A DNA stretch of 64,000 bases from an uncultured Clostridia bacterium (GTDB lineage Bacteria > Bacillota > Clostridia > Oscillospirales > Oscillospiraceae): positions 86,905 through 150,904 of the forward strand of contig CAMHMZ010000003.1 of the NCBI GenBank assembly GCA_946186375.1, written 5' to 3'. Positions 3,737 through 61,650 of the stretch are shown here, piece after piece (position 1 is the stretch's first letter; each line of letters begins with the position of its first letter). Under the pieces are notes generated by a model. The model was not told where the DNA came from and made no database searches. It saw only the letters and a program-made list of their open reading frames with translations. Position numbers and translations under genes: made by a program.

Positions 3737-3781
3737 CAGAAAACGCCCTCCGGCCTTGTGGCCGGAGGGTGTTTTCTGGTC
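3737..3781 (+). terminator. Terminator of the coat-protein operon
   Basis: Long hairpin: CCAGAAAACGCCCTCCGGCC pairs with GGCCGGAGGGTGTTTTCTGG across a TTGT loop. It starts immediately after the CotF-like stop codon. Confidence 0.85.
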
Positions 3782-3962
3782 AGTTTTCAGTTCTCAGAAA
3801 GAGAAACGGAAGTTTAGCGAGGAGTTTGAAATGATGTCGTAGGGGGCGATGCCCTCATCGCCCCGCCTGTACAGGTCGGATTTGCGGGCCGATCAGGGGA
3901 TCGGCCCCTACGACAGCCCTCGTTTCTCTTCATTCCGAACTCCGCATTCCGAATTTGTCTAA
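3782..3962 (+). repeat. Composite intergenic repeat, copy a
   Basis: No gene. It holds modules that recur elsewhere in the window: CAGTTTTCAGTTCTCAG, AAAGAGAAACGGAAGTTTAGC, GTAGGGGGCGATGCCCTCATC, a second palindromic GGGCCGAT unit, and CATTCCGAACTCCGCATTCCG. Related blocks lie near 10.8, 15.9, 21.0, 23.6, 29.6, 34.1 and 36.0 kb. Confidence 0.75.
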
Positions 3963-10802: not shown

Positions 10803-11035
10803 AGGTGATATTCAGTTTTCAGAAGTCAGTTTTCAGATAAGCGGGGGGAAAAGTTTTTAGTTTTAAGTTTTTAGTTTTTAGGAGAGCGCGATAAATTTAG
10901 AGTTTGAAAACAATGAGGAATGAGGAGTTAGGAGCGAGGAATGAAGGGAAACGAAGGATAGAGCGAGGAAATTGGCGTCTGCGCCGTAGGGGGCGATGCC
11001 CTCATCGCCCCGCGCGGTATGGATGAAAAGTTGAA
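10803..11035. repeat. Composite intergenic repeat, copy b
   Basis: Part of a 541-bp gap (10737-11277) with no convincing gene; the ORFs reported here are repeat-derived. It contains TTCAGTTTTCAGAAGTCAG, AGTTTTTAGTTTTTAGGAG, ATGAGGAATGAGGAG, AACGAAGGATAGAGCGAGG and the GTAGGGGGCGATGCCCTCATC palindrome shared with 3840. From about 11100 to 11220 a second repeat type repeats GACGAGCATTGCTCGTC and GTAGGGACGAG. Confidence 0.7.
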
Positions 11036-11933: not shown

Positions 11934-11944
11934 ACCTGATTTAA

Positions 11945-12103
11945 TACTATTATCTGATAAGAAGTAGACAAAGATTTGCGAGATGGATTTGTGTCAGGCG
12001 AGGCATCGTCCGCAGGGAATACTTTGTGTATTGCCAAGGACGATAACGAAGTATGGCGCAAATCCAGCCGCAAAGATTGTCTGCTTTCTATCAGATAATA
12101 GTA
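11945..12103. mobile_element. 159-bp MITE-like element, divergent copy
   Basis: Ends TACTATTATCTGATA / TATCAGATAATAGTA, flanked by TAA on both sides. Arms pair over most of their length (for example AGACAAAGATTTGCG-like ends). The apex GGAATACTTTGTGTATT sits 71 bp from the left end, exactly as in the copies at 37595 and 59085. The flanking stem ATCGTCC/GGACGAT differs from the CACTTTTT/AAAAAGTG of those copies yet still pairs. No ORF. Confidence 0.7.
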
Positions 12104-12108
12104 TAAAC

Positions 12109-12900
12109 TCAGCCGTAGGAGTGCAGGCCCGGCAGGAGCGTATTGACCCCGGCGAAGGTGAAGAACACGACCGGCACCGCGATGATGAGGTACCAGGCCA
12201 TCTTCACGCCCTGCTTTTTCGCGCGCAGGCGCAGGTGCAGATACACGGCGTAGATGATCCAGGTGATGAGCGCCCAGACCTCCTTCGGATCCCAGGTCCA
12301 GAAGGCCGACCAGGCCTGCTCGGCCCAGATGGCGCCGGAGAGGATGACGACCGTCAGAAACAGAAAGCCGAAGGCCACGAGGCGATAGCTCAGAAAGTCC
12401 ATCTGCTGCAAGCGCGCGTCCCCGGCGTCGGCGCCCTTTTTGACCGCGAGCACATAGCGCAGCCCCACGCAGCCGGCGAGCACGAAGGCCGCGTACGACA
12501 GCACCGCCGAGCCGATATGGATGCCGAACCAGCCGCTGCGCAGCGCGGGCATGAGGTCGTGGATCTCCATGGGCTGCAGCGCGGCATAGGTCAGCACGAG
12601 CAGCGCCATGGGCATGGCCGCGACGCTGAGCCAATCGGTCTTCATGCGGCCGCGCAGCACCGCGAGCATGAGCGCGATGCCCCAGGCGAAGGCGTTGGCA
12701 AACTCGAACTGGTTCGACAGCGGCAGCCGCCCGGCGGCGACGCCGCGCACGATGATAAACACCGTGTGCACGGCCAGCGCCCCCAGAAACACAAACCGCG
12801 CCGCCTTGAGAAGCTTTTCTTTTTTAAAGGCCGTACCGGCAAACTGCAGGATCACCGCCGCGGCGTAGATCAGAAACGCGGCAAAAAACAGGATCTTCAT
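12109..12900 (-). CDS. ccsA: Cytochrome c biogenesis protein CcsA (ResC)
   Basis: 263 residues, about eight membrane helices. It carries the haem-handling WWD segment GAIWAEQAWSAFWTWDPKEVWALITW (about 190-215), flanked by conserved histidines (IHIGSAVLSY, and HSYG at the end). With ResB it forms the System II haem exporter and cytochrome c synthase, attaching haem to CxxCH motifs outside the membrane. It overlaps resB by 4 bp, and the pentaheme nitrite reductase gene lies just upstream, its obvious client. Confidence 0.9.
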   Translation of the reverse strand: MKILFFAAFLIYAAAVILQFAGTAFKKEKLLKAARFVFLGALAVHTVFIIVRGVAAGRLPLSNQFEFANAFAWGIALMLAVLRGRMKTDWLSVAAMPMALLVLTYAALQPMEIHDLMPALRSGWFGIHIGSAVLSYAAFVLAGCVGLRYVLAVKKGADAGDARLQQMDFLSYRLVAFGFLFLTVVILSGAIWAEQAWSAFWTWDPKEVWALITWIIYAVYLHLRLRAKKQGVKMAWYLIIAVPVVFFTFAGVNTLLPGLHSYG

Positions 12901-23604: not shown

Positions 23605-23787
23605 CGTCGAAGTTTTCAGTTTTTAGTTTTTAGTTTTTAGAAAGAGAATCGTCAATTCCTGCGCAGATCTTTCGTTTCCCTTCATTCCGCATTCCGAATT
23701 CTGAATTTTGTCGTTCTCCTGAAAACTGAAAACTGGCTTCTGAAAACTCATGATTCCGAATTCCGCATTCCGAATTCCGCATTCGCC
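23605..23787. repeat. Composite intergenic repeat, copy e
   Basis: AGTTTTCAGTTTTTAGTTTT, AAAGAGAATCG, CTTCATTCCGCATTCCGAAT, CTGAAAACTGAAAACTGGC and a run of CCGAATTCCGCATT. The right end overlaps the last codons of the FAD oxidoreductase gene. Confidence 0.7.
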
Positions 23788-29582: not shown

Positions 29583-29639
29583 TTTTCAGTTTTCAGGAGC
29601 GTGACAAATAAGAGTTTATCGCTGAGTTTATAATGAAGC

Positions 29640-29735
29640 CGTAGGGGCGGCCCTAAAGGACTAGCTTCGCGTCGCTATCAGCCGCCCGCGGACACGGTAC
29701 TGGTTTGACGGGCGGCTGATAGCCGCCCCTACGAC
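29640..29735. repeat. Palindromic GGGGCGG repeat, copy 1
   Basis: A 96-bp unit bounded by GTAGGGGCGGCC and GGCCGCCCCTAC-type ends, containing CTAAAGGACTAGCTTCGCG and two GGCTGATAGCCGCCC units. The segment 36041-36137 is its reverse complement with a few mismatches. It sits in the 283-bp gap between the isomerase and pcp. Confidence 0.8.
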
Positions 29736-29810
29736 GTCATCCTGAGCGAGCGAAGCGAGTCGAAGGATCTTAAGATTCTTCGTCGCTGGCGCTCCTCAGA
29801 ATGACAGCGC
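29736..29810. repeat. GTCATYCTGAG-type hairpin repeat
   Basis: GTCATCCTGAGCGAGCG...AAGGATCTTAAGATTCTTCG...CTCAGAATGAC forms a long imperfect palindrome centred on ATCTTAAGAT. From memory, this GTCATTCTGAGCGAAGCG motif recurs between genes in many unrelated bacteria. Confidence 0.65.
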
Positions 29811-35929: not shown

Positions 35930-36040
35930 AAAAGTTTTTAGTTTTCAGTTTTCAGTTTTTAGGAGAACGACAAATTGGAGTTTAGTGTCGAATTTGGAAT
36001 GAAGGAAACGAAGGACAGCGCGAGGAAATTGACGTCCACG
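35930..36040. repeat. Composite intergenic repeat, copy h (left part)
   Basis: AGTTTTTAGTTTTCAGTTTT, GGAGAACGACAAATTGGAGT and AACGAAGGACAGCGCGAGG modules; the last matches the block at about 10950. It leads directly into the GGGGCGG repeat copy 2. Confidence 0.65.
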
Positions 36041-36137
36041 TCGTAGGGGCGGCTATCAGCCGCCCACCAAGCCCGTACCATGTCCGCGGGCGGCTGATAG
36101 CGACGCGAAGCTAGTCCTTTAGGGCCGCCCCTACGGC
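36041..36137. repeat. Palindromic GGGGCGG repeat, copy 2
   Basis: Reverse complement of 29640-29735 with few differences, including AGCTAGTCCTTTAGGGCC. Both copies end in GTAGGGGCGG / CCGCCCCTAC. Confidence 0.8.
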
Positions 36138-36193
36138 ATCCTTTCAAACGCAGCGCTAAACTTCCGTTTATCTCTCTGAAAACTGAAAACTGC

Positions 36194-37580: not shown

Positions 37581-37594
37581 TTTCTGAAAACTGA

Positions 37595-37753
37595 GTAAAC
37601 GCTGATCAAATCGCCTGCGGCGCCTCCCGGAAAATTTGCGCCCTGATTTCGTCACTTTTTCTTGAAATACACAAAGTATTCCTGCAAAAAAGTGCCATCA
37701 TCAGAACACAAATTTTCTCGGGATCCGCTCTTGCCGATTTAATCATCGTTTAC
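37595..37753. mobile_element. 159-bp MITE-like element, copy 1
   Basis: Ends GTAAACG / CGTTTAC, flanked by CTGA direct repeats (37591-37594 and 37754-37757), inserted into a CTGAAAACTGA intergenic repeat. The complete 159 bp equals the reverse complement of 59085-59243 with no mismatch. It folds as one long imperfect hairpin with apex AATACACAAAGTATT. No ORF. Confidence 0.88.
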
Positions 37754-37774
37754 CTGAAAACTGACTTCTGAAAA

Positions 37775-59007: not shown

Positions 59008-59084
59008 GCTGGGGTACCTCCTTCTGTTGTATAAATCAGCGTATCATTTTCCTGGCCGCAAGTCAACATGGAGCGAAATGAAAG

Positions 59085-59243
59085 GTAAACGATGATTAAA
59101 TCGGCAAGAGCGGATCCCGAGAAAATTTGTGTTCTGATGATGGCACTTTTTTGCAGGAATACTTTGTGTATTTCAAGAAAAAGTGACGAAATCAGGGCGC
59201 AAATTTTCCGGGAGGCGCCGCAGGCGATTTGATCAGCGTTTAC
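59085..59243. mobile_element. 159-bp MITE-like element, copy 2
   Basis: Exact reverse complement of 37595-37753. Flanked by AAAG direct repeats (59081-59084 and 59244-59247). Ends GTAAACG / CGTTTAC, apex AATACTTTGTGTATT. No ORF. It is in the 450-bp gap between the small gene and the AlkZ-like gene. Confidence 0.88.
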
Positions 59244-59254
59244 AAAGAAACTAT

Positions 59255-59348
59255 ATAGCAAAAACCGCCTCGAAACAGTATATTTTAAGACGATTTCTGC
59301 CTGCCTTGCGGTAAAGGGCGTCTGTCCCGAGGTTTAGAATTATGTCAA
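59255..59348. repeat. Degenerate palindrome-bearing repeat, copy 1
   Basis: TATATAGCAAAAACCGCCTC ... TTTTAAGACGATTTCTGCC ... ending ATTATGTCAACT. Matches 61540-61650 (TATATAGCAAAAATCGTCTT ... ATTATGTAAACT) with many substitutions. Confidence 0.6.
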
Positions 59349-60658: not shown

Positions 60659-61068
60659 ACCGACATTTCTCCATTCTGTTCCGGGAGCAGGCAGAATTCT
60701 TCCAAAAGGTTGGACTGAGTATACCATGAGTCGGCAGCTGTAACAACAGAAATCGTCTTGAAGCAAAGCATTTCAAGACGATTTCTGGCAGGGGAAGAAG
60801 GCTTCGAACAGAATTTGGGTATTTTTCGATACTTTTAAACGTCATTTTACGTCAATTTTGCTATTTTTAAGAACTTTTCTAAACCGGTCTGACCACTGCA
60901 TTTTTTTAGGTTCAATAAGTTGGGGGTCAAGCAAGGGGTCGAAACGCACTCTGAAGGCGGTTCGCCGAGTGTCCTGATTTGCATTTGCATATATTCATTT
61001 TTCGGCTTGTTTTCCCCTCCACCACCAAGAACAGAATCAACCATTTGACTTGAAAAGGAGTACTGATT
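60659..61068. other. 410-bp gap with one palindromic repeat
   Basis: Contains the AGAAATCGTCTTGAA / TTCAAGACGATTTCT palindrome (60748-60786), an AT-rich stretch near 60815-60915, and GC-rich text before TnpV. No supported gene. Confidence 0.5.
60748..60786. repeat. AATCGTCTTGAA palindrome, copy 2
   Basis: AGAAATCGTCTTGAA-gcaaagcat-TTCAAGACGATTTCT: 15-bp arms and a 9-nt loop. Same palindrome as in the blocks at 59262 and 61546. Confidence 0.7.
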
Positions 61069-61539: not shown

Positions 61540-61650
61540 TATAGCAAAAATCGTCTTGAAACGAAACATTTCAAGACGATTTCTGTCTGTGTTGCACCAA
61601 ACGGTGTCCAGACGAGGGTTTTACTACCAGAAGGTGCCTGATATTATGTA
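61540..61650. repeat. Palindrome-bearing repeat, copy 3
   Basis: TATATAGCAAAAATCGTCTT, loop, AAGACGATTTCTGTCTG, then GGTGTCCAGACGAGGG and ATTATGTAAACT. Aligns end to end with 59255-59348. The gap 61417-61733 holds no gene. Confidence 0.65.

Follow-up and report, generated by a model that had tools for sequence, protein, structure and literature searches.

Palindromic members of the non-autonomous transposons (MITEs) are usually read as passive transposon relics. Several described systems come close to the elements analysed here. Correia/NEMIS and ERIC are mobile repeats of 100–200 bp whose transcripts fold as long stem-loops (PMC2229807, PMC2649163), and binding or cleavage of Correia/NEMIS transcripts by RNase III has been reported or proposed (PMC2229807, PMC2649163). 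Bcr1 is a repeated stem-loop family of about 150 bp from Bacillota with a predicted common structure (PMC2267715). REP and REPIN sequences with RAYT form many imperfect hairpins, some of them in inverted pairs (PMC3116915, PMC3733652, PMC8266576).

Here we describe a family of rod-shaped repeats that differs from each of these. It shares with Bcr1 its size, type of fold and phylum, but by its description Bcr1 is confined to the B. cereus group (PMC2267715). It resembles REP/REPIN in its imperfect, sometimes paired hairpins; REP sequences, however, measure 20–40 bp and carry end tags such as GTAG, a misfit to elements of about 159 nt with target duplications. Correia/NEMIS and ERIC occur in other taxa (the likeness does not come from sequence comparison), and the literature searched reports for them neither a core common to differently ended transposons nor the strand asymmetry described below. 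IS5-family MITEs are matched by the elements that we call family A, which are short, lack genes and share with a congeneric insertion sequence (IS) the type of terminal inverted repeat and the 4-bp YTAR duplications. They are not known for the full-length strand-specific rod with conserved internal loops seen here, and the element at the centre of this study also departs from them in its ends and its 3-bp duplications. We did not find the rod family described in the open-access literature searched, which does not prove its absence.

Two transposon families with one common fold

The window (the whole stretch of DNA analysed, 64,000 nucleotides of a gut Clostridia genome) contains the apex sequence GGAATACTTTGTGTATT exactly three times, against 0.03 occurrences expected by chance. 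Two occurrences lie in identical 159-mers of family A, and the remaining one lies in the family-B element (Table 1), hereafter the window element. The first-pass annotation had presented the latter as a third element with the same length, loop and 71-bp loop offset as two identical copies, with mostly different arms and with apical stems that still pair. These observations held: the loop starts 71 bases into all three 159-bp elements, ungapped identity to the identical copies is 38% at equal length and loop offset, and the quoted apical stems pair as described. The element is, however, no variant of the same transposon, as its ends and its target-site duplication differ from those of the two copies. 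The sequence evidence places the window element and its two companions in different transposon families with one common fold.

Together with short flanks (11940–12112), the window element has a minimum free energy of −86.8 kcal/mol (z = −14), and none of 200 shuffles was as low. The second covariance model described below (R2) scored the element at 116.9 bits (E = 4.9e-29); this score is not independent, as sequence of the same locus sits in the model-building alignment.

Table 1 Coordinates of the rod elements in the window and of their parts
Feature	Positions	Strand	Basis or remark
Left 3-bp target-site duplication, TAA	11942–11944	no strand	sequence; TNA flanks of related elements
Family-B 159-bp element, TACTATTATC...GATAATAGTA	11945–12103	+	single rod on + strand
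Conserved core rod of about 100 nt, common to family A, B and C elements	11975–12074	+	
Conserved internal loop, 5' strand, GCGAGGC	11998–12004	+	consensus
Sub-apical 3x2 internal loop, 5' side, GCA	12012–12014	+	fold and consensus
Apical hairpin, GGGAATAC-TTTGT-GTATTGCC	12015–12035	+	
Sub-apical internal loop, 3' side, AA	12036–12037	+	fold and consensus
Conserved internal loop, 3' strand, AACGAAG	12045–12051	+	consensus
Right target-site duplication, TAA	12104–12106	no strand	sequence
Family-A copy 37595–37753 with 4-bp duplication TCAG on both sides	37591–37757	−	
Family-A copy 59085–59243 with 4-bp duplication AAAG on both sides	59081–59247	+	identical to 37595–37753

Other repeats are also present in the window. 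A 41-bp imperfect palindrome, CAGAAATCGTCTTGAA...TTCAAGACGATTTCTG, forms another small family with three copies (59259–59299, 60747–60787 and 61545–61585). An inverted-repeat family around GCTATCAGCCGCCC...GGGCGGCTGATAGC (3776–3845, 29598–29737 and 36038–36177) reaches at most 140 bp, its members being 86–87% alike, and intergenic repeats of the AGTTTTTAGTTTTTAG type lie at 10849–10888, 23608–23647 and 35930–35969, among other places.

Family A carries IS5-type ends and duplications

The exact apex occurs in 23 copies in the genome from which the window comes, 22 of them belonging to family A (GTAAACG...CGTTTAC) and one being the window element. Exact 4-bp direct duplications flank 37 of 106 copies, compared with a mean of 5.4 when flanks were re-paired; they are mostly YTAR, and TTAA, TTAG and CTAA are the most frequent in family A. 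These 106 copies are nearly all family A, come from the same genome and its congeners, and include some loci counted twice. A complete IS5-family IS of 1.2 kb with a TTAA duplication was found in the genome of a congeneric sister species (G015, locus L189), and its ends, GGAAACACTGATTTAATC and GGAAACGCTGAATAAATC, match the family-A terminal repeat GTAAACGMTGATNAAATC. It encodes a transposase of 331 amino acids (NCBIfam transpos_IS5_4 and Pfam DDE_Tnp_1; 295 bits against NF033581, cut-off 140) that has relatives in 15 of 102 genomes of the genus.

Family-A copies are thus IS5-family MITEs on sequence evidence, with IS5-type ends and YTAR duplications both present, and because of these two features an IS5-family transposase is their likely mobiliser. 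We found no partner transposase for family A in its own genome, a draft that is about 84% complete, using PF01609 and a protein search, and the core rod was not seen in the sequence of the G015 IS. No clean empty site was recovered for the copy at 37.6 kb; the gene next to it aligns with most of its orthologues no further than about its stop codon.

Family B and its core-less relatives

Family B ends in TACT...AGTA and is more diverged than family A. Similarity to the window element reveals about 20 loci in its own genome, mostly of 156–163 bp. Related elements have TNA flanks in 15 of 15 cases on the left and 14 of 15 on the right. The two flanks are identical in 9 of 15 pairs, against 4.7 expected on re-pairing; with only four possible TNA words, this excess is no more than suggestive. 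Inverted terminal repeats, a duplication of fixed length, many dispersed copies and the lack of a gene fit a MITE in general. B ends are present in 49 of 102 genus genomes; we found no autonomous partner and no pair of B ends about 1 kb apart, in a search that covered only part of the matches.

Dispersed elements of about 57 bp also carry B ends; they consist of two terminal repeats with almost no interior and lack the core (L367, L369 and L371), which argues against plain transposase recognition. Since B-ended elements disperse without it and it was not seen in the IS, the core is more than just a site for a transposase. The first-pass annotation had proposed, as one alternative, that the hairpin is DNA recognised by a transposase. 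This fits the terminal repeats only, as one core lies between different ends and duplication lengths and core-less elements exist.

Stems covary and unpaired bases are kept

Among 20 diverse family-A elements, 94.4% of cells fall in standard pairs and 38 of 52 pairs show two-sided changes. The covariation score of this genus set is 0.558, compared with 0.191 in shuffles (none of 500 reached it), and sliding the structure lowers the paired fraction to 40–53%. Hits from the order and phylum are 91.2% paired, with two-sided changes in 49 of 51 pairs and a covariation score of 0.737 against 0.199; they were not used in building the second model, but were aligned by it, and a few sites enter the set on both strands. 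Common descent inflates two-sided counts; the slid controls, which are equally related, fail. A MAFFT alignment of cores was left out, as it misaligned the variable stem. Covariation therefore exceeds both shuffled and slid controls, by these controls and not by R-scape itself. It had been suggested beforehand that selection acts on a hairpin, and that missing covariation in a larger set or copies without arm pairing would refute this; covariation and pairing are both present, and the suggestion is supported by covariation in two sets and by the asymmetry of G-U and A-C mismatches.

Stems turn over almost fully while unpaired loop bases stay conserved. The latter comprise a GAG bulge after the inner stem, an internal loop of approximately CRAGGC on the 5' and RACGMAG on the 3' strand, and sub-apical GCAG and CAA. 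That the apex does not vary among the first genus copies is in part an effect of how they were chosen, as they were fetched with the apex sequence.

Some other ideas about the fold were set aside. UNCG-type apical loops as evidence for RNA are not general, a hammerhead ribozyme motif in family A (CTGATGA...CGAAA) is lost in other copies, and helical phasing behind the 159-bp length does not fit extended copies of other lengths.

The fold is strand-specific

A mismatch that reads as G-U on one strand reads as A-C on the other, and in a merely symmetric double-stranded palindrome G-U and A-C leftovers are expected to be equal. We counted mismatches by a neutral arm-against-arm alignment, taking only those flanked by matches, and found G-U to A-C ratios of 129:25 in 40 genus representatives, 89:10 in the order set and 44:5 outside the order. 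P values for these mismatches assume an independence that does not hold, and counts per element are safer: 35 elements are biased towards G-U against 1 towards A-C in the genus, 25 against 1 in the order and 13 against 0 outside it. Outer 20 positions, middle and core all show this excess. In 40 of 40 representatives the rod (+) strand folds more stably than its complement, with a mean gain of 21 kcal/mol.

Mutation bias from replication or transcription offers no ready explanation, because copies lie both ways relative to genes. Covariation, strand asymmetry and conserved unpaired bases together indicate that selection acts on a folded single strand, a strand-specific rod. That this strand is most probably RNA is inferred: G-T pairs are tolerated in single-stranded DNA (ssDNA) too, so that the asymmetry demonstrates a strand-specific fold and not RNA as such.

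Distribution and variant forms

A first covariance model, built from the 20 diverse family-A elements, has matches in 76 of 102 genus genomes, and in many of these the copy number exceeds 20. A second, built from 71 genus matches, finds the rod at E ≤ 0.01 in 156 of the 394 genomes sampled from the order, a count that takes in some genomes with weak best scores. Outside the order matches are sparse (13 genomes at E ≤ 1e-4 among 399 drawn from the phylum); their ends differ again, for example CTAG-flanked TACTCTGTTAACC or GGGCGTGTCTGA, and their loops are similar. Copy numbers per genome in the order and phylum samples are lower bounds. Rfam yields only two tRNAs in the window and no match to the element at E ≤ 5.

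Several congeneric genomes contain repeats of about 300 nt in which the core makes up one arm; these repeats also have a long outer stem, a second arm and a tiny hairpin between the two arms. The second arm matches the model on the opposite strand, and thus these are inverted pairs of cores; in Rfam they give sub-threshold matches only. Those at L288–L306 (for example L296, reverse strand) have a REPIN-like layout. Enlarged rods with extra hairpins in the arms or apical loop occur at L190–L195, L373 and L375, and a similar apical insert is present in G021 and G093. Facing cores 1–3 kb apart might have delimited a larger transposon, but in both cases that were checked the genes between them are ordinary or prophage-like.

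Comparison by blastn with phage and plasmid records, with one element in each case, found no similar sequence. Ten IMG/VR contigs contain the exact apex, five of them with a full-length rod and one with a rod cut by the contig end. At L366 (G124:C49:7000–11500), rods flank genes that by eye resemble phage terminase and portal, and one of these rods may thus lie within or next to a prophage.

Genomic context

Genes predicted by a simple ORF caller contain 2 of the 83 genus copies and none of the 40 in the window's own genome. The rod strand of the window element is antisense to both flanking genes, and no promoter was found in or near this copy. Relative to the upstream gene there is no overall bias towards the sense strand (24:15 in the own genome, 30:42 in the genus set). 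Family-A genus copies within 13 nt of a stop codon, however, have an antisense to sense ratio of 29:6 (p = 1e-4), in a test whose ends were chosen after the distances had been seen. This does not agree with a 3'-UTR function on the sense strand; the element might prefer such targets, or strong hairpins immediately after a stop codon might be selected against.

Discussion

We favour the reading that these elements are MITEs whose whole length of about 159 nt is selected as a strand-specific rod, in RNA form and with contacts to a host factor; we give this a probability of about 0.5. Its parts are not equally secure. That an IS5-family transposase moves family A and that a strand-specific rod is under selection are both well supported. 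RNA as the structural form is inferred without expression data, and we prefer it to ssDNA by about two to one. Counting against the favoured reading are the failure to find a promoter at the window element, the antisense position of its rod strand relative to both neighbours and the lack of an overall sense bias among copies. The first-pass annotation had named a structured RNA as its other alternative, and a structured single strand, with RNA favoured over ssDNA, fits everything beyond the terminal repeats. The rod would fold as RNA within transcripts that cross the element, and its conserved internal loops would be contacts for a conserved host factor. Such contact may make insertions tolerable or regulatory, so that the rod would stay intact while copies spread. 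The most economical candidate for the factor would be RNase III or some other double-stranded-RNA-binding protein; recognition of this kind remains a weakly supported guess, made only by analogy with Correia/NEMIS (PMC2229807, PMC2649163), and no factor has been identified.

The strongest rival holds that the structural form is ssDNA: one strand would extrude as the rod, for example in replication, and a protein of the transposon or the host would bind it, much like REP/RAYT or attC. This is possible. Strand-specific G-T pairing agrees with it, the rod ends coincide with the transposon ends and the strand bias extends into the terminal stems, the inverted core pairs of the elements of about 300 nt resemble a REPIN layout, and orientation to genes is not consistent. 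Against it, target duplications of 4 bp and 3 bp favour ordinary double-strand transposition, and in length the rod exceeds a REP about fourfold. A plainer account, an ordinary palindromic IS5-family MITE in which nothing matters but transposase binding at the terminal repeats, suits family A in its outer 18–20 bp and its target duplications. We consider it unlikely, since the core is common to elements with different ends and duplications, has not been seen in the IS and is missing from the dispersed B-ended elements of about 57 bp.

Covariation could also be mutational. Template switching is known for imperfect palindromes and yields paired changes. If one arm of the hairpin were corrected from the other, the paired changes seen here would arise without selection on any folded molecule. 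Such correction would, however, leave G-U and A-C mismatches equal, where 129:25 to 89:10 was observed, and would erase internal loops, whose unpaired bases are kept across genera; we regard this explanation as very improbable.

A bolder version of the RNA reading, which we think more apt to be wrong than right, is that the rod is a mobile, structured noncoding RNA of a new class, handed on between MITEs whose ends differ, both throughout the order and outside it, the RNA fold and not the ends being conserved. A strand-specific fold that is kept through near-complete sequence turnover, and between different ends, offers an opportunity to test for selection on nucleic acid folding within selfish DNA, and a previously unannotated class of repeats gains a searchable model. 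Several rod copies sit at contig ends, and the elements thus probably contribute to assembly breaks in these genomes.
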